Origin: Gigantopelta aegis
Taxonomy: Eukaryota; Mollusca; Gastropoda; Neomphalida; Peltospiridae
Length of the DNA: 64,000 nucleotides
Assembly (NCBI RefSeq): GCF_016097555.1
Contig: NC_054712.1
Location: forward strand, 48,470,318-48,534,317
Direction: 5' to 3'
Position numbers and translations under genes: made by a program. Numbering within the stretch: the stretch's first letter is position 1; every line of letters begins with the position of its first letter. Below the pieces are notes generated by a model. It saw nothing but the letters and a program-made list of their open reading frames with translations. It made no database searches and had not been told where the DNA came from. Shown in pieces: positions 9,907 through 63,290 of the stretch.

Positions 9907-9999
9907 GTGTTTTGACATTGTTCTTTCTTTTGAACAAACATGTTTTGAATATTTGTGGTTATATAAATATGAGTTTATTGACATTGTTCTTTCTTTTGA
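9907..9999 (+). repeat. 66-bp duplication of the polypyrimidine tract before the first coding exon
   Basis: The block TTGACATTGTTCTTTCTTTT occurs at about 9913 and again at about 9979, the second copy being the pyrimidine tract and acceptor (TTTAAG) directly upstream of the ATG exon. The two copies differ in a few bases. Confidence 0.55.
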
Positions 10000-10015
10000 T
10001 TTAAGGTAAAGTGAG

Positions 10016-13000
10016 ATGGCGACAGGAGGCTGGGGTAAGCGAGCAGCTACCCGGATTGACAGGACTCAGTTTGAACATGACGAGTTGCTCAAATCGTTGG
10101 GCACACAGTTCAATGTGGATTTTACTGTGTATGAACAGTGGCAAAGACAAACCAAGGTTGTGAGACCATTTGTCAAACAAACATCAGTTAGCGAAGGTAA
10201 GCTGCATGGCCATTGTTTTATCAGTTTAAAAACCCCCAAATACATTGTATTACCTTCAAAAAGTAAGTTTTATAAAGCAAAGTGTTTAAAGTGTTAAGAC
10301 TATCCACTTTCAGAAAAACACAACAAAGTTTAAAAAAAAAAAAAAACTAAGTTTGACATGAAAACAGGGATGTGATTTTTTAGCTTTTTATCTGATTTCA
10401 GCTTTTTTTTAGCATATAACAATTTTCACAAATAAGACTATTTGATCGGAAATGCTAAAATATTACCTTTATATAGATATCTATTTCAGCTTTTAAAAGA
10501 TATTTTCAAAATTTATTTTAAAATAGATATCAGATCACTGTGTATAAAGCCTGGGAACATTTCGTTTTTAAAATCTTGATTAGCGATATTTCTTGTCAAT
10601 TAAAACTTGATTACCAGCTACTGTTTAATGTTTTAAAATTGTGTAGAGATCTCTGAAACTTGCATAGCAAATCACAATGCGATACTGAAATTAATATTCT
10701 CTGAATGGTTAGAATTTTTATTTAAACACGCAGACCCTAGTTTCAACCCATAAAAATGGATACTAAGTTTGATTAAGTTACAAACCAGCAACACATTTGG
10801 ATAATGTTAGAAGAGGAAGAAACAAAAGTCTGTGACATTGAAACTGTGAAATACCGTTAAACTTGGACTAAAACTCGACTCCATAACTGTTATTATCTCG
10901 GAGGCACATGCATTTTTAAAAAATATGAAAAATGCATTTTGTGGTATTATAAAAATCAGGATGACCAGAAACACTTCGGTTGTATGGAAATCAATAATCT
11001 AAACAATAAAATATAAGTAATGTTTGATTTCAGTGATCATAAACGGCTCTAATAGTGAAAAATATGCCTTAGTGTTTAAAAACTAGGGTCTGTCCCTTTA
11101 ATATGTTATGTTTTATTTTGAGAAGGTACCTTTACTGTTGGACATGTCAAGACGACAGATTCACCCAAACAACTGACAACTCAGAAAGAGAAGAAGATCG
11201 CTGCCAAGTTGGAGGAGGATGAGAAGCGCCGACAGGAACGCATGAAGATATTGAAGGTTTAAAATGCACCACACTCTCCACAATTTTCTAAACATCAGCT
11301 TAAGGGCTGTCATTATTATTAATATTTTTTTTTTTACCAAGATACAAAGTGTACTGCTTTTCACTACTCCTGAAAAAGCATTACCAAAAATGTAGATTTT
11401 GTGTAGGGCTACTTTTATCAACAGTAGTTGCATGTACAGAGGGGGGTTTGGGGGCTGGACTTTCTTCAGCTCAGTGTAATTTGTTGGGTTGTTTGTTGTT
11501 GTTTTCCTGGAGGGAAGCATTATCCAACTCCTTAGAGACTGCTCACCACAGTCTAGAACCCATACTCCTACGTAATTTCCTGCACATGTGCCTGAACACG
11601 GGCATCGGAATAAGCATTGTGTCTGGTAACCCATTTACAGGTTACCACAAAATATAGCCTGGTAACCTATAGGTTACCACAACTATATGAAAGTTACAAT
11701 TGAATTCCCGTTACTACTACTTTTAACGCTAAAACGCGGACGTTCTGAAATTGTATAGGTGCACGCGAACATTGGGGTGAGAAACTAAATCCAGAAGTAC
11801 ATTTATCTAGTGGGCACTGCTTAAACGCGGATTGCCAAAATTGCTTGCAATTGCACACGTGCACACGGACATCGGTGCGGAAGTAAATTCATCTAGTGGA
11901 CGCTGCTTAAACGCGGAATGACTATAATTGCTTGCAATTGCATAAGTGCATGCGAACATCAATGCAATTCCTTACGAGAAAATGAAACGCGGAAGTCCGG
12001 AATGCATTGTCTGGTTTACGATCGGAAACGAAACTACCCTTACATTGAAATTTTTTTCAAGAACGAAACACCGTTCTTGACTTTTCTTACATGTGGTAAC
12101 CACCCGGTAACCTGAACGACCGTTTTCGACTTATTTCGATGCCTGAGAACAGTCAGCATGGGGATATGAAGCTAGCACCTATCGGTCATAAACCTGATAA
12201 TTTAACAGTTGGTGAATTAACACCAATAGAGTTTTCTTGTTAAAATAGTATGATGTTCAGCATTGTTGTCTTTATTGTTTTCATTATTTACAGGGCGGGA
12301 TCTAGCTCAGTCAGTAGAGTGCTTGTCTGACATGTTTGGTCATAATATAGGATCAAATCCCTTTTAGTGGACCCACTGAATTATTCCTATCTCAACCAGT
12401 GTCCGATGATTGGCATATCAAAGACCATCATATTGCAGTCCCAACCCCTGCAATTAAAGAGACATTCCTGAGTTTGCTGCAATTTTTAAGACGTTATCGA
12501 CTAACAGAGACTTTTTAATGATTGTAATTACATATCAAATATATTTTTCTGCATAAAATATTAGTGGCTGTATATTAAACGTGTTTCTGATCGTTCTGAT
12601 ATATGTACTAGGTTAAATGTTATTTTATTTCCTAAAATATATTTTTTCGTACGTACAGAATTATTTGAAGACAAAATCCAGTTTGGGCTTCTTACAAATA
12701 TTTGCCGGCGTCGTGGTTAGGCCATCAGTCTACAGGCTGGTAGATACTGGGTTCGGATCTCAGTCAAGGCATAGGATTTTTAATCCAGATACCAACTCCA
12801 AACCCTGAGTGAGTGCTCCGCAAGGCTCATTGGGTAGGTGTAAACCACTTGCACCGACCAGTGATCCATAAATGGTTCAACAAAGGCCATGGTTTGTGCT
12901 ATCCTGCCTGTGTGAAGCACAAATAAAAGATCCCTTGCTGCATGCCATAAAAGAGTAGCCTATGTGGCGACAGCGGGTTTCCTAAAAAAAAAAAAAAAAG

Positions 13001-16000
13001 TGTCGGAATAACCATATATTTGACATCCAATAGCCGATGATAAGATAAAAAATCAATGTGCTCTAGTGGCGTCGTTAAATAAAACAAACTTTACTTTCTT
13101 ACAAATATTAAGACGACCAGAAACACATTGAATTAGATACTAATATTCTAAACAAGAAAATATATTTAATATGTATGTTTAATCGTAGAAATATTTTATT
13201 GGTCGGAAACATCTTACAATGCAGCAAACTCAGGAATGTCCCTTTAAGAACATGTCCAGGGTTTGCGGTCCTGTCTATGTGAAAGTGCATTATATAAAAG
13301 TTCCCATGCTGCTAATAGAAAATATTTTCCTCTGAAGACTATGAATCAGAATTATAAACTTTTTGACAACCAATAGCCAGTGATTAATTAATGTGCTAAA
13401 GTTGTGTGATTAAACAAAACACAATTTAACTTTCCCTATTTATAAAATTAATTACTATTATTGTTTTATCTATTTTGTAGTTAAGACTGAAGACAAGAAA
13501 ACAAACACTAGATGAATATTTGAAAAGATTTCAAACGCTGTATCCTTTGAGAGCTGCTGGTTGATATTTTGTATATTGGATCATTGCATGGTTTATTCAT
13601 TCATCCAAGTTATTACCGGGATATTGCATTCCACCATGTTACGTGAATATTGCACACACAAAAACAAATTTTTTGCCTTCATACAATATACATGTTTTGG
13701 GTTTTTTTGGGGGGGGAATGTTAAAATGGACCATAATAAAAAAAATTGTGATGCCAATAGTAAATTTGACCGAAGGGTATCAGAAGAAAGTTAAGATAAT
13801 CAGCACCATTCCCCAAGGGCCGTCCTTTTGTGTTCCCAGTTTTGGAGTAAAAAAATTCCCAATATGAATGTATATTATTCCCATTTTTTATTATTCTATA
13901 AACAAAACGGTAACACTCTACAAACACCCCTTCCCTCCTCAATAATTGCTATATCATTTCTTAATGAAAAACATTTAATTTGAATTTATATAAGGTCATG
14001 TATAGTACTTTATGAGATGTTTTTTTGTAAAATGATGCTAAAATTTCCAGACAAAGCCATGGACATCAATTCAAGTCAAATTTGAAAAATCAGGGCTTCC
14101 AGAATTTTTATAAAATCCACTAACCATGGAATTAGTGATATAAATTTTTTCCTAGCCATGATTAAAAATTCACTAGCCCTACTTTACTTTAAGTTAATAC
14201 AATTTTACTAAATGATAGTAATAATCAGATATTTATAACACTTAAAGAGGAAGATAGAGCTCAAAAACACTAACACTGGAGGGTAGGATGGCGGCAGGAT
14301 ATTCATATTTACAAAATAGACTTAAATGCAACATTTGACCAACAATAATTCACTAGCCATCGGGCATGGCAATAGTAGTTATTTACTAGCCCAACATTGA
14401 ATATCACTAGCCATGGGAGTGGGGCTACGATAATCTAGAAGCCCTGCTACTAGACTTAGAGCTGATGGCTTAACAACTACACCACTAAATCTGGTATGTA
14501 CATATTGTTAGCTGTTTGACATTTTTTATTTAATGTGTAGAAGCCAAATTCAGTATCATAAAAAAAATTAAATTAAAAATTAAATAATTCTTAAATATTA
14601 CTTTTCTAACAAATTTATTATGAAACCGTAACCAAATTCAACTTTTTAATTTTTATTTGCTGAATAGCCATTTAAACCAAGGCTCAAGATTCATTTTGTT
14701 GGAGTAGAAAGCTAAATTTTGCTTTTCAAATTTTAATCTGTCATTAGTAATTGAAATTAGTCTCAAAATTAAGACTCCTTTACAAGACTTATAATGTAAC
14801 TTTTTGTAATAACAATATCACAGAATGCTTGAGGTAAACGCAAATAAAAGCTTATGAATTTTATCATCACATTTTATCATAAAACATTCTTTTAACCATT
14901 CTTAAAAATGAAGAATTCTGAATATACCTAGAATACTCCCACAATAAGATGTCCTGGTCGGAGGAACTGGTTGAGGCCCAGGACAGGCATGCGCTACAAC
15001 AGCTTGCTCTGAATGTGTACGTTAAACAATTTTCTATTCCATTCCAAAAGCTGCTTGTTAACTTGTTTATTAGGGGGAAAAATGTATCTTAAATGTCTCC
15101 ACATAATATAGTTTATTTTCATGGCAATGTTTACACATTGGGAATTAATTTCCAGAGTGTTTTCTTTATATTACAAAGAACAAATCTTGTGTAGTAAATT
15201 AAGTGTTTCATGTAAAACGGTTCCTTGACTGTCTAAGTTTGGATGAGAACATTAAGCTGAAAGCATTTATAGATGGAGATGAAAAAAACACACATGATGG
15301 TGTGAAAAAAATGTTGAGAAGATATGAAAAATATCGGGTAAGTAATGTTTTTATTATCACTGATAATAAATAATATTGATCAAACTTGGGTTTTTGGGTT
15401 TTTTTTTTTAATGTTTCAAATCAAGAAATAATCTACAAAGCATGTTATTATTTTTTATTGATATTGGATGTAAATGGCAGTCATTGATTTACACAACTTA
15501 TATACATGTATAGGGTTTCAGCTAGACGCCAAAAATTAATAGCAATCTGGCAAATTTTATCAGAAAAATCTGTAGTAAAATTCAAGTAATATTTAGCCAA
15601 ACAGAATTATTTTTTAAATAGCTATAGACATACAAACAATACGCTTTTCGAATTAGTTTCTTGGCAAATTAGTTGATGACATATATTAATATTGTATATT
15701 ACTGCATGTTATATGTATATTAATTATTTTTCAGATATTTGTAGAAATGGTTTACATTGCCACATTATTTATAACCAAATTCTGGACTATGGTCCATCGA
15801 TGTCTTGTTTTATTACAGGGAGGTATGATAACTTTAAATACAAACTTCGTAAAAGAACTGGCTGAAGTGAAAACTGATTTTGCGGAAACTAAGAAAAGAC
15901 TTAAAACCGATATCACAGGTAAATATTTTTATTCAATTTGTATTTGTTTATTTATGTCATATTTTATAGATTCACGGATTCATTCATTCATTCATTTATT

Positions 16001-19000
16001 CATCCATTAATTCATCCTAGCTGGTAGAGTGCTAAATTCATGCAATAACAGATGGACGGATGGACAGACAGGCAGATAGATATGTTTAATGACACCAGAT
16101 AATGAAAAGTGTAATTAAAGAGGTCAGATGCTATGTTTCACAGGAGTTAAAAAAATGTTTTTTTTAATAGTACTGTATTGAAGATTAATTAATCTTATTA
16201 CTCCAGTGAGCACTCATAACCAGATAAATAAAAATCATAATTTCTCACTGAAAATGTTATAGTAACTTGTTTATTATCTTTTTTCTTTGTTTTTGGTTTT
16301 TGGTTTCAGTTTTAGAGAAGCGCATTTCAGAAGTTGACGTCAAACTTCAGGCCCAGCATGATGAATTGAAAGTTTTGTTGAGTTACAAAGTAAGACACAC
16401 ATCACAGAATTATGTAGGCTCTTCCTGAAATGACTGTGGGCTGAGGGTGGTATCCATTTTCCATTGGTACCCATGGACCAAATTCACTAAACTCTCGCAA
16501 CTTTGTAATCTCTAAAATAATCTTTGAACATGACTGCAAACACATTTAATATACAGACACTGATATTCTAAACAAGATAATTAACTAAAAATGTAATTGT
16601 AGTCACCAAAAAGGCCCTGTTAGACGGAAGCATCTTACAATAGCTCAAAGCTCAGGACAATTTTTTTTAAATTAAACATTAATTAAAAATTGAAGAATTT
16701 CTTTTTAATTAAAATTGGAACTTAAGTTATTAGTATTTATTAATTAACATACAAAATTTCAGTAATAGAATGTGAAATTATTGTATTTAAAAAAGCTGGG
16801 ACCTAATTCACAAAGCTCTCATGGGCTTTACTAGACAACAAAGCATCCTCTTTGCAAGTCTTTTTGCAATTTGCTAAACATTTCACTTTTGGTTAAAAAT
16901 TGTTATTGTACTACTTTTCTTATTGATATATTTTGATAAAACTAATTCTGTTTTTATTTTGTTTTCAGGACAAGGAGTATCCAGTAAAAGCGATAAAGAT
17001 ATCAAATCTTCAGAAGGAGATCGAAAACCTCCGCGTATCAAACAGGGTAATTACATTGAGTGGTTACTATAGAAATGTAGTTTTTCACAATCAAATGTCA
17101 CAGATATATGAGATGTTTTCTTCGAGAGATAGAAAACCTCCACGTATCAAACAGGGTAATTACATTGAGTAGTAACTATAGAAACAGGTTTTTCTTCAGA
17201 AGATAGAAAACCTTTGCACATCAAATAGGGTCATTACATTGAATGGTAACTATAGAAATATAGTTTTTTTACAATCAAATGTCACAGATCTACTCGAGAT
17301 ATTTTCTTTAGAAGGAGATCGAAAAACTCTGCGTATCAAACAGGGTAATTAATATTACATGAAGTGGTTACTATAGAAATATAGGTTTTCACAATCAAAT
17401 GTCACAAATACATGAGATATTTTCATCAGAAGCAGATCGAAAACCTCTGCATATCAAACAAGGTAATTACATTGAGTGGTAATGACTAGAAATGTGTTTT
17501 TTCACAATTGAACATCACAGATGTACAAGAGATATTTTCATGCAGTCTAAAATTATTATATCTTGAGGTTAGTTGAAGAGTTAAAAATGTATATGTCTTG
17601 ACAAGAGTACATTTCTTGACAAACAGCAGCAAGGGATCTTTTATAAGCACTTTCCCACAGACAGGATAGCACATAGAAGAGCATAATGCTGGGTTCATTT
17701 GATGCTCGTGAATATTGTAAATTCACAAGTTTCAAATTGTAAACATTACATGTACATGTACTTCACCAAGTGGAAAGCATTCAGGCAATTCATAGACAAG
17801 ATAGAAAGATGTCTAGGTCTGGTTGGCTGTCTCATCATTTGAATGTTAGCTGTCTATTTCCGCCATTCTTTCCACTAGTTGTGAAGATTGAGACAGAAAA
17901 TCCTACCCCAGTTGACAAGTTGTGTTCACAGGTTATTTTGCCAAATAAACGCTCTTCACAACTTGTGAAATATAGTATTGACGACTTCCAACGAACACAG
18001 TATTAATACAGTTTGAATTTAGTACATTAGCCGGGTGGGATTTAGCTCAGTCGGTTGAGTGCTCGCTTGAGGTGCTTACGTCACAGGATCGAACCACCTT
18101 GGTGAATACATTCAACTGATTGGGGTTTTTCTCATTCCAACCAGTGTATCACAACTGGTCAAAGGCCATATGATATGTGCTTTCCTGTGTGCACGAAAGT
18201 GTAGCTGGTTTCCTCTGATGACTATGTATGAGAATTACTAAATGTTTGACATCTAATAGCCGATGATTACTTAATCAATGTGCACTAGGGGTTTCATTAA
18301 ACAAAACAAACTTTAACTTTTTAGTACATTAACTTTTAATGAAATTCAGTATCTTGTATCTTTAATTTAATGCTAATGCAGTGTTTGTTTTTAGTGAACA
18401 TGGTTTTTAATGTTTGTTCTCTGTAGGAAGAGATGGAAGAACTGGAACATATAATTAATACAGAAGTTACGAAGCATGAGAAATCAAGAATACAGCTCAC
18501 AAATAAAATTACAAGAAACGTAACAGAGGTAACTTTGTGTTTTTTGTTTTGTGATTAACAAGCATAAAAACTTGAGCGTGAAAACTCAAAGTATAAGAAT
18601 GGAATGGAGATCATTTGGGCAGGTATTATGTGCGTGTGTGGGGGGGGGGGGGGGGGGGGGGGGGGGTGCTGTATTAAAGAATATAGTAACTAGAGGGGGT
18701 TTTTTTGGGTGGAGAGGGTTGGGTTTCAGTTTTGTTTAATCCCACTTCCCCCTTTCTTTTATCTCCTTTGAATTCCATCTCGTTTCTTCCCAATCTGCCA
18801 GCTCCTCCTAGCTTTCAACTTCTTTTGCTGTCCACCTCCACATCCTAGTCCTTGTCTGTCCAATCATGACAGGTGCTTGTCTACTGTAGCCATCAGTGCA
18901 AAACCTACCAGTGTTAAATGTGTTGTATTGTGAATAGCAAGAACAAGTGGTTAATAATTCAGATACTAATGTTAGGATTACAAAAGAGTGGCATGTTGTA

Positions 19001-22000
19001 TGTTCAGAATAAATCAAGGATATTTGATTTTGATTAATGAATAAATATTGAATGCAACATTCCTGCCATGCTGCAAACACAAGTGAGACATTACCAATGA
19101 TTTCTCCAAATGAATTGGGCAAGATTCCCAGATTTTCACTGGACGTTAAATCTGGAACGTGCCACAATTGATTTGTCCATTTTAGACCATGCCAGTGATT
19201 TTATGGGTTATTAATCAAATAACTTGAATTTCTCAACTTTTATTCTTCTTGCTTATCAGGGTCTAGTTTGGATATATCCGATATCTATATCCTGGCATCA
19301 ACATGTAATGGCAGTGTAGTGTCATATTTGGGCCACGTTCAACCAGACCAAGCAGAACGACGTCCGCTAGTCGCTTCACAGTAAACCAGATGGCCATGTC
19401 GGGAACCAATAAAATAGTTAGCGAATGTTAGCTGGCTTTTTCTTTGTCACTCCGTACTATCACCACAGATATTACTCTATTCCTATTAACCTGCATTAAG
19501 TTGGAATATCACCTTAGTACACTGAAAGTCCTCAAAATTGGACCATCTGTAAACTGGAATTCCTTCAAGATCGGACGTTTTTCACGGTCCCTTTTTAAAC
19601 ATCAGTACAGAAAAGAACCTCTATTGGTCTCGTGAGTGCCCGGTTTATAGAGGTTTCACTGTACATATTTCAAACAGTAGTAATTATCATCAAGGTTTTT
19701 GCCAGAGGGTAAAACGGGTATGGCGCCATACCCAAATTTTTATTTTTTTAAGTTAACATTTTGACAAAATTAATTACTTTATCATTATTGTATGATTTTC
19801 TTAACCCTAACCCTAAATGTAACCCATTTTTTTTGTGGGAGAGGACCCCCATGCTCCCTGTTCGAATGTAGTTGCATTCAATTCCATAGCGCCATGCCCA
19901 AAAATTTCTTTCTGGCAGAAACACTGATCACAGAGGTTAGCAAGCCTGAGATGGTGAGAGTGCCTCATTGTCGATGGACTATGAATCATAAAACTATTTG
20001 ACGTGTCATGTTACATAGGCTGAGGAGGATGAGTCGCGAAGAGTAAGTTGCACAGATTTTAACGATGAGGGGGAGTGTTGTGTCTCACTGGAAAGGGCAA
20101 GTCATATCATAGAGGTAACCTTCAGTTGTGTTCAGTTGTGTTTGCATTAAGTTGTATTGTTGTTATTTTACAGGTATTGTTTTACTCTGCATGACGTCGT
20201 GTTCTTTTTGCATTATGTTGCGTTGTTGTATTACGAATTATATGATGTTGCTTTATTTTCCATTATGTTGAATTATTTTACTTCTTTTGTTTATCTGTTT
20301 GCTTTTTTTAATGTAAATCATATTATATAAAATAGTTATATTATGTTAAATTGTTTTATTTGCTTTGTTTATTTTCATTATTTTACCTTTTGTTGCACTG
20401 TATTGCTATTTTACATTATTTTGTATTATTTTATATATGTTATTTTGCATCATGTTTTATTGTGCATGTTCCTACACATTCCTTTTACCAACAGCTGTGT
20501 CATAAAATAGTCCCGTCCAAGACTATACAACTAATGCGGATGTCATGTTGAACATTCCATTTACCAACAGCTGTGTCATAAAATAGTCCCGTCCAAGACT
20601 ATACAACTAATGCGGAGGTCATGTTGAACATTCCTTTGGGTTTTTTTTAATGTCTGGCTGTCTGTCTGTCTGTATGTCTATCCATCTACATGTATCTGTA
20701 TATCTATCTATCTATTGATCCATTCACCCATCCATTTATATACATGTATAAATACCCCAGTATATATCTATTGATCCATCCATCTTTTCATCCATCTGTC
20801 CATCCATCTATATATATATATAAATTTAACTTTGATGAATGGTTTTACAAAGAGCGCTCATCTTGTCAGGAGCAGTAACATGACTATGCATGAGCGCTGT
20901 TTAGAATGAATTTACAAGTGAAGGACTTCGAGTATTCCACCAAGAATATCCCGCTGGCAAGCAAAACTACATTCCTCCAAAGACTGATTGAAAAAACTGA
21001 ATCACTTATACAACGAATGCGTTGGAAGGCTTATTTCTACCTCAACCCAAACACTGACACGGCAACCAAGGAAACATACGGCTTTAAATCTAAACGATCA
21101 CTTCCGCATATGAAAGAACTGCGGGAATTTGAGGACTGTATGCTAGATATAATACAGCACATTGAATTTAAAACCAACCACTACCCCAACAACCTTCAAA
21201 GTAAACTTAGCAAAGACCTTAAAGATATACGAGAAGACAAGCACGTGTTTGTAAAAGCAGACAAACAAGCAACTTCTACAAAACCGAACCAAGAGACTAC
21301 ATTGACCTCATAAACAAAAACGTAACAAAATCCTACAAAAAAACTAACCACAGTACCGCAAACATGACAACCTCAACAGACAAGGAAATTGCAAAAAAAC
21401 TGGAACTCGATAATAGAATTGAGTATCAGCAAATAAAGATTCATTCATAACACTGAAAGACCATAAACCGGAGTTCAACAACAAGTCGACATGCAGACTA
21501 ATCAACCCAAGCAAATCAGAAATTGGCATTATCAGCAAGCATATTTTAGACAGGATAAACATACAGATTATCAAGGCAACCAAAGTGAACCTGTGGAGAA
21601 ACACAAGCAGCGCCATAGAATGGTTCAAAAATATCCCAGAAAAACATAAACACGCATTTATCACCTTTGATGTGTGTAACTTCTACCCATCGATATCAGA
21701 AGATCTCCTAAGAAAAGCACTCGACTATGCATCAACATTCACTAATATTACACAACAGGACCAAGAAATTATTATCCACACAAAAAGATCACTCCTGTAC
21801 CACAAAGACTCACCATGGATAAAGAAAGACACAAACAACATGTTTGATGTGACAATGGGTTCATATGACGGAGCAGAAACCTGTGAGCTAATAGGTACAT
21901 ACATGCTGTCGCTAATTGCATCAAAATTCAAAGATGAAATAGGACTATATCGCGACGACGGTATTGCAGTATGTAAAGCCACCCCAAAAGAAATTGAAAA

Positions 22001-27797: not shown

Positions 27798-28387
27798 ACG
27801 TTCGACTCTTTAGTTCACTGGAGTCAAGCGAAACCTTCTGAAGATTTCACAGTATGTTCAGGTGGAAAAACAGACAACTTGTTCATGCAATTTGTTTCAA
27901 GGCAATGATGGTGTTTATCACATACATGAAGAAAAAAAAAGAGAGAGTATTTTTGCTGTCTTTCTGGAATATTATTACTACCGGTATTTGAGAAATATGG
28001 GTTACTATGTACTCCACCGAAATATGAAATGTGTATATTGTATGTTGACAGTTATTAGTATTCAAAGAATACTGGTTACCCTATCTGTGATTTGTGCACA
28101 ATCTGTCTGGAATATTAAATAACTATTCTAAAAATATTAGTTACCATGAATATAACAGAAGTGTTATTTGTGAATTCTCCATTTTGAATGTTTTTGGTAT
28201 TGTTTAGAGAGTAAGTGAGACTTTGTGACAGTCTATGATGTTTTTTTGTTTGTTAATTATTCAAAAAATATTAGTTACAATGAAGGTAACAGAAGTGTAA
28301 TTTGTGAATTCTCTGTTTTGAATGTTATTATTGTTGTTTAGTGAGTAAATGAGATCGTGTGATTTGTGCAGTCTGTGATATTTTTTG

Positions 28388-48500: not shown

Positions 48501-51500
48501 GCTTGTTTTAGCATGGTGCAGCACCATGCCTCAGTAGTCTAGCACAATCTTGCCTCAATCAGGACCATGCTGCCCCGAGTGTTTTCCCTAGCTTGTTTTA
48601 GCATGGTGCAGCACCATGCCTCAATAGTCTAGGCATCTTGCCTCAATCAGGACCATGCTGCCTGTTTTCCCTAGCTTGTTTTAGCATGGTGAGCACCATG
48701 TTTTCCCTCAATCAGCATGCTGTTTTCCCTAGCTTGTTTTAGCATGGTGCAGCACCATGCCTCAATAGTCTAGCACCATCTTGCCTCAATCAGGACCATG
48801 CTGCCCCGAGTGTTTTCCCTAGCTTGTTTTAGCATGGTGCAGCACCATGCCTCAGTAGTCTAGCACCATCTTGCCTCAATCAGGACCATGCTGCCCCGAG
48901 TGTTTTCCCTAGCTTGTTTTAGCATGGTGCAGCACCATGCCTCATAGTCTAGCACCATCTTGCCTTAATCAGGACCATGCTGCCCTGAGTGTTTTCCCTA
49001 GCTTGTTTTAGCATGGTGCAGCACCATGCCTCAGTACTCTAGCACCATCTTGCCTTAATCAGGACCATGCTGCCCTGAGTGTTTTCCCTAGCTTGTTTTA
49101 GCATGGTGCAGCACCATGCCTCAATAGTCTAGCACAATCTTGCCCTCAGGATCAGCTTGTTTTACCATGCAGCACCATGCCTCGAGTCTAGCACAATCTT
49201 TCAATCAGGACCCTAGCTTGTTTTAGCATGGTGCCTCAGCACCATCTTGTGTTTTCCCTAGCTTGTTTTAGCATGGTGCAGCACCATGCCTCAATAGTCT
49301 AGCACCATCTTGCCTCAATCAGGACCATGCTGCCCCGAGTGTTTTCCCTAGCTTGTTTTAGCATGGTGCAGCACCATGCCTCAGTACTCTAGCACCATCT
49401 TGCCTTAATCAGGACCATGCTGCCCCTGAGTGTTTTCCCTAGCTTGTTTTAGCATGGTGCAGCACCATGCCTCAGTACTCTAGCACCATCTTGCCTTAAT
49501 CAGGACCATGCTGCCCTGAGTGTTTTCCCTAGCTTGTTTTAGCATGGTGCAGCACCATGCCTCAATAGTCTAGCACCATCTTGCCTCAATCAGGACCATG
49601 CTGCCCTGAGTGTTTTCCCTAGCTTGTTTTAGCATGGTGCAGCACCATGCCTCAATAGTCTAGCACCATCTTGCCTCAATCAGGACCATGCTGCCCCGAG
49701 TGTTTTCCCTAGCTTGTTTTAGCATGGTGCAGCACCATGCCTCAATAGTCTAGCACCATCTTGCCTTAATCAGGACCATGCTGCCCTGAGTGTTTTCCCT
49801 AGCTTGTTTTAGCATGGTGCAGCACCATGCCTCAGTACTCTAGCACCATCTTGCCTTAATCAGGACCATGCTGCCCCGAGTGTTTTCCCTAGCTTGTTTT
49901 AGCATGGTGCAGCACCATGCCTCAGTACTCTAGCACCATCTTGCCTTAATCAGTGCCATGCTGCCCTGAGTGTTTTCCCTAGCTTGTTTTAGCATGGTGC
50001 AGCACCATGCCTCAATAGTCTAGCACCATCTTGCCTCAATCAGGACCATGCTGCCCTGAGTGTTTTCCCTAGCTTGTTTTAGCATGGTGCAGCACCATGC
50101 CTCAATAGTCTAGCACCATCTTGCCTTAATCAGGACCATGCTGCCCCGAGATTAAACAAGCCTTTTTCACTAATTAATTCTAAAATTGCCTTTATAAAAC
50201 ACCCAAAAAGGTATTACTAATTAATAAAATATGCCTTTTATATCTTTTGCCATTCATTTATTAAAGCAAGCACATAAATTACATTAATGTTTATTTCAAT
50301 TAATTTTTGTGTGTTTTAAATGAAAAACAAGTGCCCTGAAAATGGTAAAAATGCCCCAAAAGTGTTTGGTCTACCATGCCGTGCCAAATTTCTAAGGAAA
50401 ACACTAGTAAAGTAATAACTAGAAATTAACAGCAATAACACTACCAACATTTTGCAAGGTTCTCTCAAACAAAAGCAAAGTAAAATGGCCAAGAACCAAA
50501 AGTTATGTTTATTTCTTAAGCTGTTTGTGGGGCATTCTTTGATCAGGACAAAAAGAACTTACATATATATTAATTCAGTAACACAAATGTTTATGATAGC
50601 CATCATCATAGGCATAGGCTACCTTTGTTTCTTGGGACAAATTTCAAGCTTCCATATTAAAAGGTTTATCAGGGTGGGTTCTTTTTCACTTGCCTGCAAA
50701 TTTTAAAACATTAGGCTGATTTTGTCGTAAATAGATTTTCAGACTGTTTGCAACTGGTGATTACTTCAACAATTATATATGAGAGTGGCAAAAAGGCTTA
50801 TATGTAGAATACTTTCTTTACAAAAGTTAAAGTTGAAGTTTGTTTTGTTTAACAACATCACTAGAGCACATTGATTTATTATTCATCAGCTATTGGATGT
50901 CAAACATTTAATATTTGTTTACTCGTACATGTACTTGTAATGTTAAAGAAAACCTGCTAGGGTCTACACGAGTACTCAGGCATTTACAGGACTCGAGTAC
51001 CAGTGCAAGGAATGTTGAGCACACTCATTTAATTAAAAACATTTTTAATGTCATTTTGCCATAATATGCTTGTCCCCGGTTACATTATAGGGCTATAGGA
51101 CAAAAGTGAAATGCAATACGATGGCATCATTTGGCATCCATGTTCAGTGCTGGAATTAAGATGCATAATGCTATTTTTACTTTATTCCTTAGTCTCATCA
51201 TGATGCAGTGTAAGTGTTGGGTACTCGGGTCCAGGTCGAGTTTGACCCTCGAGTATTCGAGTCCAATATTTTGAACTCGTGGAGGCTCTAAAACCTGCTA
51301 TATATTTTCATTTAGCTAGAAGAAGTTTTAAAACTTTCATGTAGAGTGGATTAAAAAAAAAAAATCTATTTTGTGGGGAGTATACTGGTACATGTACAGT
51401 ACATTTACGTGGATGCATTTTGACTGAAACCCTTTAAAACCTAATTAAATTTTTATTTCAGGATTTGGGATTGTATGAAGACTCTGCAAGAACAAATGTA

Positions 51501-53883
51501 ATTGCATACACCCTGAACAGTTTAACATGGTAAGTGTTTCTGCAGAACAGCTGGAAACAAATTATGTAGACTTGAACCCAATTTTTCTTCTCTTTTTTTT
51601 CCAGGAATTTAACCCTACGTTGAAAAATGGAGCAGACCTAATTCTTTTTGTCACTGTTTGGTTTTTTTTTTTTTTGGTTTTTTTATTAATATGTAGGTGA
51701 AAAGAGTTCATACATTTTATCTGGACCCATAGGAGTAAATCCAGTTTAAAAAAACCCTACCTAATATACTTACAAGTACCAAAATCTTTTACGGAATGTT
51801 CCCGGAAACACAATTTAGTTTTTAGGCCTTATATCTCATTTCGAGGTTACAAGCTATAACCTAAGGCTATCCAGTTGCTCAAGACCATGTATAGTTTATC
51901 TATAAGATCTTATCAGGTGAGTGTGATGGACACTGGACGTGACACACTTTAAATGGTATCACTACATGTACCTTCCTCCTAGACTAACCAGAATTCCCAA
52001 AGACTTTGTATTGCAACCGGCCTCGGTGGAGTAGTGGTTAGGCCATCGGTCTACAGGTTGGTAGGTACAGGGTTCGGATCCCAGTCGAGGCATGCGATTT
52101 TTAATCCAGATACAGACTCCAAACCCTGAGTGAGTGCTCCGCAAGGCTCAGTGGGTAGGTGTAAACCACTTGCACCGACCAGTGATCCATAACTGGTTCA
52201 ACAAAGGCCATGGTTTGTGCTATCCTGTCTGTGGGAAGCGCAAATAAAAGATCTCTTGCTGCTAATCGGAAAGAGTAGCCCATGTAGTGGCGACAGCGGG
52301 TTTCCTCTCAAAATCTGTGTGGTCCTTAACCATATGTCTGATGCCATATAACCGTAAATAAAATGTGTTGAGTGCGTCGTTAAATAAAACATTTCTTTCT
52401 TTCTTTCATTGTATTGCAATGCTTGTCTTTTGAGTGTATTAAAATGTAATGCAAACATTATAATTTGTATACACACTAGCTTCCATTTAACAAGTCCACA
52501 GAAACCATTGTAATTTGTATATGCTAGCCTCCATTTAACAGGTCTGCGGAAACCAGTGGGGGAGGGGGGTTGTACCCTCCACTTGATGACCATATAATTT
52601 AGTTTACTTTTTTCTCTCCTACAATTTATTTTTATAAACACCTAACCTGTAAAACAACTGAAAATTTAATTTTATACTCCTAGTCTCGGTGGTGGTGTGA
52701 TTAAGCCATCGGACCTAAGGCTGGTAGGTACTGGGTTCACAGCCCGGTACCGGCTCCCACTCAGAGCGAGTTTTAACAACTTGATGGGTAGGTATAAGAT
52801 CACTACACCCTCTTCTCTCTCACTAGCTACTAACCACTGACAACTAACCCACTGTCCTGGACAGACAGCCCAGATAACTGAGGTGTGTGCCTAGGACAGC
52901 GTGCTTGAACCTTAATTGGATATAAGCATGACAATAAGTAGAAATGAATGAATTTTTGTAGCACAGATGCTAAGAATTAAATTTCAGGCCATCCAAAGAA
53001 AATAAATGCATATAAGTGAGGCCCAGTGAGCATAACCCCACAGCTTTTAACACCTTCAAATATCAATTCTATAGGCCCGATTCATTTCTCATTCTTATAC
53101 ACCCATTGGTGAGAGCATCACTCGTTATTTTTGGTGACACATATTTGTTTACACATGTATTTGTGTTAAAAATGTCAAAACATTTGACTAGCTACTCCTA
53201 GGTGATGACCAGATCACCAGTGCCATACATCCAAATTGCAATGAAAACAGCACGATCGAAATCGATTACACAGTGACGTATAGTTAACCTGATAATCATT
53301 TGTCCGTGATATGCAAGTTAGCTTTTCAATGCAAGGGCTGTAAATAACTTTTAGTTGAAAAAGATGTAAAAATTTGCTTAAAACCTGGTCTTTTTTAGAA
53401 TATGTAAGAAATAGAATAATATAACTGTGTCCGTTAGATACCATTTATCTTACAACTCGTTGTTTAAAACGTGTCAAACTCACTTTCACTCATTAGATAC
53501 ATTTTAAAACAACTCATAAGATAACATTCATGTATTATTATCTATTTGAAAAATCCCATTTATTTAACAGTTGATATTACAAAAATGAAAAGATTTATAA
53601 AGTCGAACGTGTTATTGATTTGTACATTTCTTTTCATTTCAGTGCACTGGGCTTGTGGTTAGTAGTGCGGAAAACAAAACAGTGTCTGGATTTCGCGGCC
53701 ACGGTTCACTTGTTACATTTCGTATCGTGTTGGATATACGGGGGTCACGTTCCACAGACGTTCTGGTGGTGGCTTACCAACATAGTGTCCATGACGCTGA
53801 TGACTGTGCTCGGGGAATTCCTGTGTATGAGGACAGAGTTGAAGGCCATTCCAGTTGGCATGGGACCCAAGGTCGATTTATAA
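45585..53883 (+). CDS. SYS1: SYS1 Golgi trafficking protein
   Basis: Exons 45585-45746, 51462-51529, 53643-53883; 471 nt, 156 aa, the same length as human SYS1. SYS1 is a four-TM Golgi protein that recruits the ARFRP1/Arl3p GTPase to the trans-Golgi. The start MAGHFRSNVWDPVLILSQIV matches human MAGQFRSYVWDPLLILSQIV as recalled. Later blocks: NVIAYTLNSLTCALGLWLVV (TM2), KQCLDFAATVHLLHFVSCWI (TM3), WWWLTNIVSMTLMTVLGEFL (TM4) and CMRTELKAIP at the tail. An in-frame ATG at 45549 would add MLGLLRRQLNKQ, right after an in-frame stop; the shorter start is chosen by homology. Intron 1 (5.7 kb) holds a 3.2-kb satellite-bearing element. A possible poly(A) signal ATTAAA is at 53975-53980. Confidence 0.94.
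45853..46330. mobile_element. Decayed MITE related to 28388-28723
   Basis: GGTGTACATTATCTGCCAGT is the inverse of GGCAGATAATGTACACC in the element at 28388, and GATTGCCATCAGTTTGCC / GTGTTTCACCC continue the similarity. In SYS1 intron 1. Confidence 0.45.
46791..46841. repeat. (CATT)n microsatellite
   Basis: Twelve uninterrupted CATT units. Confidence 0.95.
47217..50406. mobile_element. TIR-bounded element filled by a 90-bp satellite
   Basis: The left end is TAGTGTTTTCCCTAG and the inverse of the right end is TAGTGTTTTCCTTAG (one mismatch in 15), with GTAAA directly outside both ends (47212-47216 and 50407-50411). About 32 copies of a 90-bp unit run from 47217 to 50150; each starts with the left terminal repeat itself and contains GCATGGTGC-A-GCACCATGC, a hairpin with perfect 9-bp arms. 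The unique right part (50151-50406) ends with a related half-site, CTACCATGCCGTGCC. Several units are scrambled or shortened (47550-47700, 48630-48730, 49140-49250). TAGTG fits the hAT end pattern, but the target duplication is 5-6 bp, so the superfamily is open. No transposase. Confidence 0.85.
50826..51340 (-). mobile_element. SINE interrupted by a hAT MITE
   Basis: The SINE tail GTTTTGTTTAACAACATCAC to AAAGAAAACCTGC (50826-50957) resumes at 51299 with TATATATTTTCATTTAGCTA. Reading across the insert restores the family's usual order (GAGGAAACCYGCTACATTTT). The 3'-most core and head are missing. Confidence 0.7.
50958..51290. mobile_element. hAT MITE with 8-bp target duplication
   Basis: It begins TAGGGTCTACACGAGT and ends ACTCGTGGAGGCTCTA; AAACCTGC occurs on both sides (50950-50957 and 51291-51298). 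Internal ACTCGAGTACC / GGGTACTCGGG form further inverted pairs. 333 bp, non-coding. Confidence 0.88.
52017..52408 (+). mobile_element. Full SINE (TTAGGCC head)
   Basis: Head CCTCGGTGGAGTAGTGGTTA, core AACTGGTTCAACAAAGGCCA, tail GTCGTTAAATAAAACATTTC. Target duplication TTGTATTGCAA at 52006-52016 and 52409-52419. In SYS1 intron 2, about 490 bp after exon 2. Confidence 0.92.
52681..52965 (+). mobile_element. Second SINE family (GGACCTAAGGCTGG head)
   Basis: Head GTCTCGGTGGTGGTGTGATT with a B-box-like TGGGTTCACAGCCC. The body (CTCTCACTAGCTACTAACC, TAACTGAGGTGTGTGCC) is unlike the other SINEs, and the 3' end is an AATGAATGAA repeat. A separate tRNA-derived family. Confidence 0.65.
53385..53545. 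repeat. Copy of the inverted-repeat element at 26972-27150
   Basis: AAGAAATAGAATA, GATACCATTTAT and CATTAGATACATTTTAAAAC recur in the same order as in intron 12 of the C20orf96 homologue. Lies just before SYS1 exon 3. Confidence 0.45.
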
Positions 53884-55631: not shown

Positions 55632-55950
55632 AAGAAAGAAAGAAATATTTTATTTAACGACGCACTCAACACATTTTTTTTTACGGTTATATGGCATCGG
55701 ACATATGGTTAACGACCACACATATATTTCGAGAGGAAACCCGCTGTCACCATTTCATGGGCTACTCTTTTTGATTAGCAGCAAGGGATCTTTTATATGC
55801 ACTATCCGATAGACAGGGTAGTACATACCATGGCCTTTGATATACTAGTCGTGGTGCACTGGCTGGAACGAGAAATAGCCCAGTGTGCGCACCGATGGAG
55901 ATCGATCCCACACCGACCGACCGCTGTACTATTGGACTACATCCCACCTA
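55632..55950 (-). mobile_element. SINE
   Basis: Tail TTTAACGACGCACTCAACAC, core GATATACTAGTCGTGGTGCA, head GACTACATCCCACC. AAAAAGAA beside ACATC on both sides suggests a target duplication. Confidence 0.85.
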
Positions 55951-57716: not shown

Positions 57717-60700
57717 TCACATCACCAGTCCCTCGTATGATACTGTCGAGTCGCTCAGGTCCATTCTCTGCTGCAGGTGTTCTAGTGTGTTGTTGAAGTG
57801 TTTATTTATTTGTTCAGTTTCCTCGTTGGCCTCCAAGTTCGGAAGGTATTCTCTTATTTTAGATATAATCTGATTCAGTACCTGGACAGATATCTGCAAA
57901 AAGACAATAGAACCAGTAACAATTTGGAATAAGAACCAGAAATTCAACTCTATGACATTGAAACTGCTTAGGTGAAATGTGAGGTTGTATGCAACACTCC
58001 CTATATGGATGAAGGAAGGAAGGAAATGTTTTATTTAACGACGCACTCAACACATTTTATTTACGGTTATATGGCATCGGAAATATGGTTATGGACCACA
58101 CAGATATTGAGAGAGGAAACCCACTGTCGTCACTTCATAAGCTACTCTTTTCGATTAGCAGCAAGGGATCGTTTATATGCACCATCCCACAGACAGAGTA
58201 GTACATATCACAGCCTTTTATATGCCAGTCATGATGCACTGACTGGAGCGAGAAATAGCCCATGGGGATCGATCCCAGACCGACCGCGCATCGACTGAGC
58301 GCTTTACCACTGGGCTACATCCAGCCCCCTATATATGGATGAGGTATACATATTTTCTACTATAATATTTAAATGGTAAATGAATACAAGGTTTAAACTT
58401 GGTTTTGTTTGACACTACTACTAATTAAAGCACACTGATTTATTAATCATCAGCTATTGGCCGTCAAACATTCAGGGTTAGCTGTGGGTCAGCAGAAAAT
58501 GTCGCCAAATGATCTATTACACTTCAAATATTGGCAAAAACCCAGCTATTTTGTATCAAAATATCAATTATTACATAAAATGATTTCACCAAATTAAAAT
58601 AAAATTCGCCATTTGTTTTTGAAATTTGTAATTGGTGAATTTGGCAACAGCCAGAGCTAGCCCAGAACATTTGATAACTCACTACACTATTCTATTAGCA
58701 ACAGGATTTTTTTATATGCACTTTGTCACAGTCAACACAGCACATACCACTACCTTTGATACAACAGATAAATGGGTATGATCAAGACAAAAAACATCTT
58801 TTGGTAGCATCATAAATAACTAGATACAAACAAGCTTTTACAACAGATTGTAAGACCGATGGACGGACAGATTATAGTTACTTCAGAACCTTAAAAAATC
58901 ATTGGGGCAATAAAGTACTAAAATATTTGAATTATTGGATGATTTTAGCAATGTAATGCTATTCACCACTTAACAAAGAAGGAAGGAAATGTGTTATTTA
59001 ATGACACACTCAACACATTTTATTTACGGTTATATGGTGTCAGATATATGGTTACAGACCACACATTCAGAGAGGAAACGCACTGTCGCTACTTCATGGG
59101 CTACACTTTTCGCTTAGCAGCAAGGGATCTTTTATATGCACCATCCTACAGACAGAATAGTACATACCACGGCCTTTGTTAAACCAGTTGTGGAACACTG
59201 GCTGGAATGTGAAATAGCCCAATGGGTCCACCAACGGGGATTAATCCTAGCACTTAACAAAGAAGAAAACAGTATGCAGGTGAAGTGAAAGTAGTGACGC
59301 CCCTAGTACCTGGTCACAACCCTTTTCAAAGAAGTAGATGTAGTGGTTGAGAAGTTCAACAAACAGTTGGACCTGCACCGAGCTGTCCATACACTGGTTA
59401 GCGATCTTCACACCCTTCTTGAGGCAGTCCGACACGCGCTTCCCATCATGCATCTGAAAAATAAAACATGTTTACCATCCTGCATAATATAAAAGATGTT
59501 TACTATCCTGCATCTGAAATATAAAACATGTTTACCATCCTGCATTTGAAATATAAAATCCTGCATCTGAAACATAAAATATGTTTAACATCCTGCATCT
59601 AAAATATAAAACATATTTACCATCCTGCATGTAAAATATAAAACATATTTACCATTATGCATGTAAAATATAAAACATATTTACCATCATGCATCTGACT
59701 AATCCACATTTGTAAAGAGTATTATGAAAACAATATTTTTAAAGAAAATTAGTAATTGATATTTTTTTATGCTACATTCTTGCCGTTTGGTACATATTCC
59801 TTTACAAGCAATATTAAAAATAATTGTTCACAACACCCCCAGCATGTTTTAAGCTATTTGGTTGGTTATTTGACAGTTGGTCTAAATAGTGAGAAGAAAC
59901 CTGCTTCTGCCATATAGGTTACTCCTAACAAATGGCAGCAGTGAATCTTTTATATGCAGTTTCCTATAGACCGGACAGGACACACCACAACCTTTGAAAT
60001 ATCAGTCATGTGACACTGGTTATTTCTTTGGTACACATTTGTATTTTTCTATAATTCTAAAGAAAACAGAAATAAATATTTATCTTTTAAGATGATATTC
60101 TCTTTAAGATAAAGAAGTCCCATGGGAACAGGGGTTGGTTGATGATGAAAATGTTTGTTTTGTCCTATCCTATATAAATAAAGATAAAAACCTGACTTGA
60201 GCCCCCACCCACTAGAGATTGTGACCCCCCCCCCCCCCCCCTCCAGATATCATTCCTACATACACATGTATCTGTATAGAGAAAAAAACCCAACTCATTT
60301 TGTACCTCGCCTTCTTGTGATGCCGACTTCCCAGACCAAAACAGATGACAGCAGGTTGACACTCCGCGACACTGGTCTGGTTTCTTCAACAGTTTTGATG
60401 AAGCCAGCGCACACTTGGTTCGGAGAGGTTCGTGGTTCTCCTCGGTGAAGCACGTCATCTGTTCGAGGGTTCCGATGATTAGAGTTATCGCTGCCAGCTG
60501 TGCCTTGCTGTCACTTATCTCATCTTCGTACAGCGAGAAAGCCTGGAATACACAAACAACACATTTAGTTTACATATCAATAATAATTCTAATGTATTAA
60601 ATGTGGGTAAATGTTATGTCTTGTTGTGAAACCTGTTTTAGGATAAGCGACCATGATGATACGAATAGTATGATAATTATTTCTGTAAATAAAAGTAATT

Positions 60701-63205
60701 AATAGTTTAAACATGTATATCTTCTGTGAGATCTTCACGGAAATTAGATAAGGAACAATGTGAGTAAACATCATATAAATGTTTTGAGAAAATATGATAA
60801 AATGTTTAAATGCAAATGTACTTCAATAAACACTTCAAATATTTGGTGATTACTTCAACACTTAAAAGAGTTAATTTCCAAAACACAATATACACCAATT
60901 TCCAGATTTTAGAGTTGACAGTGAAGGTACTCTGATGTTAGTAGAACTCAATATGACCATAAAATTTCCACTAAAATACAATCTATGTCCTTTGAATATG
61001 ATGTTAAAACTTTGCTTCATGTGATATACACTGTTATGTTGAATCAAAACTTTTTTTTGCAAAATGACATAAGTTCAATATATAACTTATTTTGGAAATG
61101 ACTTTTCACTTACTCTAAATATTGTGAGGGGGACTCCCTTCTGCCAGATGGGCAACTCCTGAATAGCAAGTATAGCTTATAATATGTACTTTCACATAGA
61201 CAGGAACATGCACACCATGGCATTAGTTAGGCAAGAATAAAAACATGAGTCCATATTTTTAAAGCTATCTTAGCGCTATGATATCGTAAAACCGTAATAG
61301 GCTATGCTGTGTGTCATAGCTTACATTGGTTATTTGATATTGTAGCACTAAGACAGATTCGAACATCTGTAGCCATATTGTTCCGGTGACCCTCTTGTGA
61401 GTGCTCTACATAAATACACAGTGACAGATTATCCAAGTGCATAAAATCGTTGGAAAGAATTAACATTTAGGTATTCGTGGTATACGGAAAATAACAAATC
61501 ATCCCATAGTTTTAATGTCATGACGACTTACCTGTGACATGAATTCATAAGCGACCGTTTCATAGTTGTCAAACTCGATCTGCCCAGCTGCCAGCGCCCC
61601 CTGGAGGAACAATCTGAGGGGCATCTCCGCCTGTTCCGCCTTGATCAATGCTCCTATAGTGTGATGACAGAACTGGAAAATCTTCTGACATTTCTTCTCC
61701 CAATTTTCATCCTGCATCAATATAAAAACACTGTTCAGTATAACTTTGTCATCCCACAACAATGTAAAAATAGTCCAGTATAATATATTCATTCTACAGA
61801 ATTAATTTTCATTCTACAACAACATAAAAATATACTGTACAATATAATGTAGTCACTTATTCTTTTATAAAAACAATGTAAAAATACTGTCCAGTATAAT
61901 GTACTCATTAAATTTTATCCGCCCAGCTTTACAACCAGAAAACATCATCACTGACCCAAGTTTTCAACGTGAAATATGTAATTTTTAACCTACATTTTTC
62001 AAACTCAAATAGTAAAAAAAACACCCTAATGTAACACTATTTTGACGTGTGTCATAATTTATAGGATATATTAGTGAGTCCAAGTACAAAAATATAATTA
62101 ACAGAAGAACTTAATTAACATTTTTAAAATATAGTTTTTAAAACCCTAAGATCACGATCCATGAGGTCAATGTTTATGACGCTTTCACAAAGTTTATTTG
62201 AGAAAGAGTTAATCAGGAAAAGCTTTTTTTAGATAATACTAAAATCCAAAATGTTGAGAAATCCTAAATTTTTAACTTCTGAATTTGCTTTGAGCAGAAT
62301 TTACACAACTCATATCAAACAATATCGCAATATAAATAATACTTCTCGTGGTCACTGGAGGTGACAAGAGTGCCTCATACGAGAGGTAGCTGAATGCATA
62401 GCAACCAATGAAATTGTAATGTTGTCTTGTCACAATCAGCTATTCTTGTATGAGGCCCTCGTGTAGTTTGGCGTTGCTTTGAGTAATACATGTTTCAGAA
62501 AGCCACAAAACAATGTTCAGCAAACACTAACAATACAGGACACGTCTTACCTCTTCCTTCAACTCGTGATACTTGAAGGCTAACCGGTAAGGAGCAAACA
62601 CTAACAATACAGGACACGTCTTACCTCTTCCTTCAACTCGTGATACTTGAAGGCTAACCGGTAAGCAGCAAACACTAACAATACAGGACACGTCTTACCT
62701 CTTCCTTCAACTCGTGATACTTGAAGGCTAACCGGTAAGCAGCAAACACTAACAATACAGGACACGTCTTACCTCTTCCTTCAACTCGTGATACTTGAAG
62801 GCTAACCGGTAAGCAGCAAACACTAACAATACAGGACACGTCTTACCTCTTCCTTCAACTCGTGATACTTGAAGGCTAACCGGTAAGGAGCAAACACTAA
62901 CAATACAGGACACGTCTTACCTCTTCCTTCTTAACTCGTGATACTTGAAGGTAACCGGTAAGCAGCAAACACTAACAATACAGGACACGTCTTACCTCTT
63001 CCTTCAACCTCTTCCTTCAACTCGTGATACTTGAAGGCTAACCGGTAAGCAGCAAACACTAACAATACAGGACACGTCTTACCTCTTCCTTCAACTCGTG
63101 ATACTTGAAGGCTAACCGGTAAGCAGCAAATACAATTGGTGGTAAAACATATTTTATTCTTTTGTCGCCTCCACTTCCAAAGTGTTTTCTCGCAGTGTTT
63201 AAAAT
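57717..63205 (-). CDS. VPS35: VPS35 retromer subunit, C-terminal five exons
   Basis: Exons in gene order: 63205-63083, 61711-61532, 60542-60306, 59453-59310, 57893-57717; all phase 0, 286 aa plus stop. It is the C-terminal third of a protein of about 800 aa; upstream exons lie beyond the window. VPS35 is the alpha-solenoid core of retromer, and this part binds VPS29 and returns cargo from endosomes. Diagnostic blocks: [147 protein letters not shown], and [17 protein letters not shown] to SYEGLVM at the stop. Three of its eight visible intron ends are next to tandem arrays. Confidence 0.96.
58013..58327 (-). mobile_element. Full SINE in VPS35 last intron
   Basis: Tail TTTAACGACGCACTCAACAC to head GAGCGCTTTACCACTGGGCT. 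Flanked by CCTATATGGATGA (58000-58012) and CCTATATATGGATGA (58328-58342), a target duplication that has since gained an AT. Confidence 0.9.
58395..58775 (-). mobile_element. Decayed SINE split by a MITE
   Basis: SINE tail (TGATTTATTAATCATCAGCT, CGTCAAACATT) stops at about 58471 and resumes at about 58675 (AACATTTGATAACTCACTAC, TATATGCACTTTGTCACAG). Confidence 0.65.
58472..58674. mobile_element. MITE nested in the SINE
   Basis: The left end CAGGGTTAGCTGTGG and inverse right end CTGGGCTAGCTCTGG match at 12 of 15 positions; AACATT stands on both sides. Related to 37800-37995. Confidence 0.6.
58982..59250 (-). mobile_element. SINE with 15-bp target duplication
   Basis: Tail GTTATTTAATGACACACTCA to core TGGAACACTGGCTGGAATGT; the head is cut short. 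CACTTAACAAAGAAG at 58967-58981 and 59251-59265. It ends about 60 bp before the VPS35 exon donor at 59310. Confidence 0.92.
59454..59695 (-). repeat. About 32-bp array anchored on a VPS35 acceptor
   Basis: On the minus strand the units read TTTTATATTTCAG|ATGCAGGATGGTAAACATG and lead directly into the real acceptor TTTTTCAG|ATGCATGATGGGAAG at 59453. Seven or eight copies, increasingly diverged with distance. Each unit has a usable-looking AG acceptor and, ten bases on, a GTAAAC donor-like site. Confidence 0.85.
59820..60015 (-). mobile_element. Decayed SINE remnant
   Basis: ACACCCCCAGCATGTTTTAA, GGCAGCAGTGAATCTTTTAT and CACACCACAACCTTTGAAAT follow SINE order at low similarity. Confidence 0.5.
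60226..60243. repeat. Poly-C run
   Basis: About 18 consecutive C in the VPS35 intron after exon 60306-60542. Confidence 0.85.
61148..61235 (-). mobile_element. SINE core scrap
   Basis: ATGGGCAACTCCTGAATAGC and ACTTTCACATAGACAGGAAC resemble SINE core at low identity. The rest of this intron up to 61531 is unique AT-rich DNA. Confidence 0.35.
61712..61910 (-). repeat. Degenerate array next to another VPS35 acceptor
   Basis: The junction context CAATTTTCATCCTGCATCAA (minus-strand acceptor TGATGCAG|GATGAAAATTG at 61711) recurs in altered form near 61805 (AATTTTCATTCTACAACAAC). CCAGTATAATGTA-type blocks repeat three times. Copies are heavily diverged, so this would be an old example. Confidence 0.45.
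62525..63082 (-). repeat. 74-bp array anchored on a VPS35 exon donor
   Basis: Eight donor copies (GAAGGAAGAG|GTAAGACGTG) end at 62551, 62625, 62699, 62773, 62847, 62921, 62996 and 63083, mostly 74 bp apart; the 63083 copy belongs to the true exon. Each unit repeats about 45 nt of exon (TACCGGTTAGCCTTCAAGTA, TCACGAGTTGAAGG) plus intron bases. If a spare copy were spliced in after the phase-0 donor through the TTAG sites, it would meet a stop within a few codons, so extra copies must be skipped. A jumbled fragment of the unit also sits at 63206-63290, upstream of the exon acceptor. Confidence 0.93.
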
Positions 63206-63290
63206 CTAACCGGTAATAAACGGTCTTACCTCTTCCTTCAACTCATGATAAAGGCTAATAAGCAGCAAATACAATTGGTGGTACTTTGAA

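Follow-up and report, generated by a model that had tools for sequence, protein, structure and literature searches.

The DNA analyzed here, a 64,000-nucleotide stretch of contig NC_054712.1 (positions 48,470,318 to 48,534,317; referred to in its whole length as the window), carries seven tandem arrays in which the repeated unit includes a splice junction. These junction arrays are spread over ~46 kb and three of four neighboring genes, namely a C20orf96-like gene, COX4, and VPS35. A preliminary description of the same DNA had placed them in these three genes, as confirmed here, and had overlooked the fourth gene, SYS1 (~45588-53883), which has four junctions and zero junction arrays. Judged from its genes, the window is animal nuclear DNA, with a G+C content of 36.2% window-wide versus 44.6% in exons.

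Gene models and junction-spanning arrays

Gene models were built from the sequence, using open frames and splice consensus, and were then tested by comparison with Pfam and PDB. The predicted C20orf96-like protein matched Pfam DUF4618 (residues 152-400 of 401, E = 5.5e-51), which we take to be the C20orf96 family named in the preliminary description. The COX4 model matched Pfam COX4 (residues 54-190, E = 3.9e-49) and aligned with solved COX4 from residue 59 on, and SYS1 matched Pfam SYS1 (residues 5-148 of 156, E = 6.5e-48). The five VPS35 exons present in the window splice to a single open frame, which matched Pfam Vps35 (E = 1.8e-86) and aligned over its full length with solved VPS35, with two gaps of one residue each.

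Homology backs the exons beneath six of the seven junction arrays. COX4 exon 2, which bears a 38-bp array, lies upstream of the matched region and was modeled from its start codon, open frame, and splice consensus; among the less firmly modeled parts it alone carries an array. The other such parts are COX4 exon 1 (open frame and splice consensus, a guess), C20orf96-like exons 1 to 4 (likewise modeled from open frame and splice consensus, homology starting at residue 152, roughly from exon 5 on), the uncertain donor of C20orf96-like exon 3 (13569 breaks the frame, 13560 was used in the counts, and the protein fits 13559), and the start of SYS1 exon 3, possibly 1 nt off. Counts of overlap between arrays and junctions included 43 splice junctions. 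A search of Rfam returned zero matches, and a six-frame Pfam search of positions 1-9900 returned one match only, below the cut-off and in a single frame.

Arrays were detected with Tandem Repeats Finder (TRF; 48 rows) and with a separate blind diagonal scan covering all periods from 12 to 500, in which simple-sequence hits and scores below 13 were removed before counting. The scan yielded 41 local-duplication clusters, and three shuffles yielded 3, 4, and 3 single hits. Genes were touched by 27 of the 41 clusters, and in 7 of these 27 a junction lay within the repeated unit. The clear arrays were found by both detectors, while the weak array at 61702 was found by the blind scan alone. Four of the junction arrays are at donors (C20orf96-like exon 8, COX4 exons 2 and 4, VPS35 e1) and three are at acceptors (the last C20orf96-like exon, VPS35 e4, and, weakly, VPS35 e2). 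The preliminary description had claimed at least seven arrays, at four donors and three or four acceptors, and both counts hold, with the reservation that the array at 61702 is weak and degenerate. Its possible eighth member, at 9907, was rejected: this is a 66-bp two-copy repeat (9894-9999) with no intron demonstrated there, and its second copy ends without reaching the closest candidate AG, 4 nt further on.

Two of the arrays lie in the C20orf96-like gene, on the forward strand. Array 1 (17007-17541) consists of ~4.5 degenerate copies of a 74- to 118-bp unit that joins the end of exon 8, its donor, and the start of the intron; exon 8 itself (16969-17046, forward strand) has an open frame and GT/AG signals, lies inside the DUF4618 match, and has its donor within the array. 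Array 2 (27147-27773) comprises six copies of 104 bp (99% matches in TRF), each holding the intron end, the acceptor, and the start of the last exon (e12; 27737-27841, forward strand; gene model and Pfam), which contributes the exon-proximal copy.

The COX4 and VPS35 arrays and exons are on the reverse strand. In COX4, array 3 (36116-36757) has ten copies of 65 bp (one of 57 bp) that contain the last 7 nt of exon 4 (36751-36882; gene model, PDB, and Pfam), the donor, and intron sequence. Array 4 (39783-40910) has ~30 copies of 38 bp with the last 6 nt of exon 2, the donor, and intron; exon 2 (40905-41044) carries the start codon, has an open frame with AG and GT, and lies outside the homology, which begins at residue 54 in Pfam and 59 in PDB.

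In VPS35, where the exons concerned are supported by gene model, PDB, and Pfam, array 5 (59443-59698) has ~8 copies of 32 bp with the intron end, the acceptor, and the first ~14 nt of e4 (59310-59453), the fourth of the five exons in the window. Array 6 (61702-61909) is degenerate, with ~4 copies of ~52 bp holding the acceptor of e2 (61532-61711); its best blind-scan score was 17, and it is absent from the TRF list. Array 7 (62518-63130 in TRF; blind-scan cluster 62518-63283) has eight copies of 74 bp (one of 75 and one of 87 bp), with a unit made of the last 48 nt of e1 (63083-63205), the donor, and 26 nt of intron. Within one 74-bp copy of array 7, a nested 13-bp tandem duplication was observed at the junction (62994-63021).

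Aligned copies show exon-end bases, splice site, and adjoining intron within the units, as had been claimed. The units differ in length (74-118, 104, 65, 38, 32, ~52, and 74 bp for arrays 1 to 7) and in their exonic part (from 6-7 nt in COX4 up to 48 nt at VPS35 e1), and their sequences are unrelated between the seven loci. This agrees with the earlier view that they are not one repeat family and rules out a single family inserted repeatedly.

Repeat sequence was also found on the other side of VPS35 e1. A diverged copy of the e1 end and its donor (63223-63283, reverse strand) lies in the intron just upstream of the exon's own acceptor, with a local alignment score of 49.5 versus at most 11.0 in 300 shuffles. 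The acceptor (63206-63216, reverse strand) has as its last 11 bases TTACCGGTTAG, which occurs eight times in the window: at the e1 acceptor, once inside exon e1, and six times in the further copies of array 7. The simplest reading of these matches is that repeat-derived sequence may now form or abut the e1 acceptor.

Splice signals, breakpoints, and copy turnover

Many copies retain a splice signal and could serve as decoys. In the COX4 e2 array the GGTGRG donor is kept in 27 of the 31 units found; at the last C20orf96-like exon the signal is present in 6/6 copies, counting the working one; and in the VPS35 e4 array AG is kept in four of the eight upstream copies. Read-through from COX4 e2 meets an in-frame stop at +35, and that from VPS35 e1 at +21, in both cases before the first decoy donor. 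For C20orf96-like exon 8 (stop at +123, first decoy at +109) and COX4 e4 (stop at +101, first decoy at +65), the stop lies beyond the first decoy and ahead of the second, and use of the first decoy would shift the frame. Among the four decoy acceptors of VPS35 e4, three lead to a stop within the stretch printed, over which the fourth remains open. At the last C20orf96-like exon, an upstream acceptor would alter only the last residues (DIPHM in place of DIPTKEWLPI). Because decoy use would mostly meet a stop or a frame shift, it seems to matter, for the majority of these junctions, that splicing picks the exon-proximal copy; that it does so is what we infer.

Breakpoints were marked by short direct repeats that differ from locus to locus: TTTGCTG at VPS35 e1, the 15-nt TCAGATGCATGATGG at VPS35 e4, AGGTGG at COX4 e2, AGATAT at C20orf96-like exon 8 (placement less sure), and CCA at the last C20orf96-like exon, as deduced from the array length (6x104+3) and inspection. 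Two further 6-nt matches, at the last C20orf96-like exon and COX4 e4, were discarded, being located away from the breakpoints. At only two of the six breakpoints does the direct repeat include the splice site (AGGTGG and TCAGATGCATGATGG). The suggestion that growth starts at AG|GT is not supported: breakpoints bear differing short direct repeats or none, and such unlike repeats rule out AG|GT as a common seed.

In the 38-, 65-, 32-, and 74- to 118-bp arrays, numerous substitutions separate the copies. Across the 25 copies compared from the COX4 38-bp array, similarity was 0.928 between neighbors versus 0.890 between distant copies, a difference that 0 of 2,000 permutations reached and that is expected from stepwise local turnover.

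Arrays also occur away from junctions. The window holds a 35-bp array of ~25 copies in mid-intron (26093-26971, forward strand; TRF and blind scan) and a 90-bp array of ~32 copies that takes up roughly half the length of SYS1 intron 1 (47218-50150, no strand assigned; TRF and blind scan), both without a junction. Among other repeats, TRF listed an array of 30-bp units at the edge of the window (2-91). Two Tc1-like transposons or remnants (23250-24770 and 30260-31730) were recognized by Pfam DDE_3 and HTH matches, the second in two different frames. The long reading frames at 20900-23000 look Penelope-like by eye and from what we recall of such elements, with no Pfam match at 0.001. Related SINE-like repeats were noted by eye in both orientations (5880-6130, 12690-13090, 52010-52410, 55640-55950, 58010-58330, and elsewhere); such repeats are typical of molluscs and, together with the G+C content of 36%, would point to a mollusc as the source.

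Origin of the arrays

We consider it reasonably probable that the arrays are minisatellites of the type called 'mirages', in which a tandem duplication caught a splice junction and grew into the intron while the exon-proximal site went on splicing. At each site a short segment (~32-118 bp) including the junction would have undergone tandem duplication, the probable cause being slippage during replication, or microhomology-mediated repair, acting between short direct repeats, and the array would then have extended into the intron through slippage and unequal exchange. The copy adjoining the exon would stay under coding constraint and would most likely still be the working splice site. The remaining copies would be passengers, many of them retaining a splice signal that is intact yet would go unused. 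The mechanism of duplication and correct splicing are here what we infer.

The earlier suggestion that growth is confined to places where the transcript is shielded by a spare splice site is not supported, as the arrays at 47218 and 26093, both among the three longest, are mid-intron. Other observations weigh against the mirage account. Inspection of the COX4 e4 breakpoint revealed no clear direct repeat, and several of the seeds found elsewhere measure only 3-6 nt, a length that by our estimate two 40-nt flanks share fairly often by chance. In the other three of the four arrays tested for turnover, neighbors were no more alike than distant copies (1,532, 786, and 359 of 2,000 permutations reached the observed value). 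Among weak clusters (score < 25, unit ≤ 150 bp), one of eight held a junction, and that one had already been flagged in the preliminary description, so older duplications lend no independent support.

The strongest alternative, which we hold to be improbable though not lightly dismissed, is a chance cluster: in a minisatellite-rich genome, several arrays would overlap junctions in one of many windows, with no genome-wide bias. This was examined with two placement nulls, in both of which each array counted as a single unit, since the length of the longer arrays would by itself make them cover junctions. In the first, units (of a length set by hand for each cluster from TRF and the blind scan) were placed randomly on the collapsed genic sequence (33,134 bases). 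Junctions were held by 6 of the 11 arrays with a score of at least 25 (0.94 expected, P = 9.8e-5), by 6/9 with a score of at least 50 (0.75 expected, P = 1.6e-5), and by 6/8 with at least 3.9 copies (0.66 expected, P = 4.7e-6); units of ≤ 150 bp at any score gave 7/19 (1.31 expected, P = 1.4e-4). In the second null, junctions were rotated within genes against 11 hand-listed TRF arrays (period ≥ 30, score ≥ 100), 10 of which are common to the 11-array set of the first null. Six of the 11 held a junction (0.85 expected, P = 3e-5), and when single genes were omitted in turn, P ranged from 1.5e-5 (SYS1 omitted) to 0.0027 (VPS35 omitted). An excess of arrays at junctions over mid-intron positions is thus present within this window by either null, which bears out the earlier argument that chance placement is unlikely, as far as one window chosen post hoc can do so.

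A chance cluster draws support from that choice: because the window was selected for showing the pattern, the P values make the excess look stronger than is warranted and do not amount to a genome-wide test. It is further favored by the mid-intron arrays, including the two long ones, by the lesser excess across all 27 genic clusters (7 versus 3.44 expected, P = 0.04; 0.002 without units having > 60 exonic nt), and by uneven results per gene at a score of at least 25 (C20orf96-like 2/5, P = 0.08; COX4 2/3, P = 0.013; SYS1 0/1, P = 1; VPS35 2/2, P = 0.0032). The low P values for clear arrays under both nulls, which under rotation stay at or below 0.0027 whichever gene is dropped, speak against it, and reports of such arrays in a number of lancelet genes suggest a general tendency.

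We regard as unlikely a process directed to junctions themselves, in which a step in base composition, R-loops or stalled transcription, or splice motifs serving as microhomology would start duplications there. It would account for the excess under both nulls and is consistent with the two breakpoint repeats that include a splice site, the nested 13-bp duplication at the VPS35 e1 junction, and the higher G+C of exons relative to the window; yet the remaining breakpoint repeats are unrelated to splice motifs, and, with an exonic part of 6 to 48 nt, the position of the junction within the unit varies. Copies added or mis-joined during assembly are a very improbable source, even though the 104- and 74-bp arrays are almost invariant (99% and 97%, respectively) and passages on lancelets describe assemblies that disagree on repeat number at such sites (PMC3902484), given the many substitutions among copies of the four diverged arrays and the intact exons and reading frames adjoining them.

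Beyond the mirage reading, we advance only tentatively, and as doubtful, a broader proposal: splice junctions might be hot spots of tandem duplication in this genome, exon ends being continually copied into introns and the arrays moving or creating splice sites. The last part is suggested by the VPS35 e1 acceptor, which sits in sequence shared with the repeat of that exon's own end. If the junction excess were true genome-wide, boundary duplication would recurrently lengthen introns and supply spare splice sites beyond lancelets, and intron gain by tandem duplication could be tested on many natural intermediates at once. The arrays would also offer natural constructs with up to ~30 donors in a row, useful for questions about site choice by the spliceosome.

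Comparison with known systems

Duplications across exon boundaries are known from several settings. Passages on intron gain describe a tandem duplication crossing an intron-exon boundary in potato RdRp (PMC4974935) and, in Drosophila, exonic duplications with a proto-splice site (PMC2891723). The window arrays share the boundary-crossing duplication with this model (the Rogers model), but they sit in existing introns. The hallmark of such gain is a new intron with its ends in two repeat copies, whereas in the window only the VPS35 e1 acceptor lies in repeat-like sequence. In human segmental duplications, minisatellites at exon-intron boundaries are described as changing splicing (PMC2812944). 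Those repeats belong to recent paralogues with transcript evidence, while the window arrays occur in conserved genes and are described at the DNA level. A human factor VII intron likewise contains a minisatellite, with a 37-bp repeat that overlaps a donor site. Matched passages of papers on earthworm metallothionein, abalone, hemocyanin, Conus, and C. elegans contained no boundary-spanning array. Among the matches listed, and as far as their passages extend, such arrays were reported for lancelets and human duplicated genes, and others in print are possible.

The closest resemblance is to the mirages of lancelets. Passages of one paper describe these in amphioxus globin genes and cite Adh3 and other loci, with unit lengths of 10-72 bp in Adh3 and 150-160 bp in the globins, unstable array lengths, and normal splicing, and propose intron gain from them (PMC3087553); passages of a second add PGBD5 and cite troponin C (PMC3902484). 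Taken together, these passages have mirages covering 5' and 3' boundaries, holding AG/GT signals, and varying in copy number, with regular splicing reportedly undisturbed (PMC3087553, PMC3902484). The preliminary description knew of no genome with arrays on so many junctions, but the structure itself was already on record from a number of lancelet genes (PMC3087553, PMC3902484).

As in Adh3, the globins BflGb6 and BflGb9, PGBD5, and troponin C, the unit spans an exon-intron boundary in the seven clusters reported here. Both 5' boundaries (four donors) and 3' boundaries (three acceptors) are affected, units vary (32-118 bp) and are unrelated between loci, and many copies keep their splice signals. 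Four of seven mirage features can be assessed from sequence and all four were found, while those concerning splicing and copy-number instability are reported for lancelets. Unlike the lancelet cases, the window has seven arrays in three of four neighboring genes over ~46 kb, with up to ~30 copies. Mirage hosts in the cases compared are all cephalochordate, and the window probably comes from another phylum. On the structure of its units, the window can be described as a dense cluster of mirages, probably in a phylum new for them.

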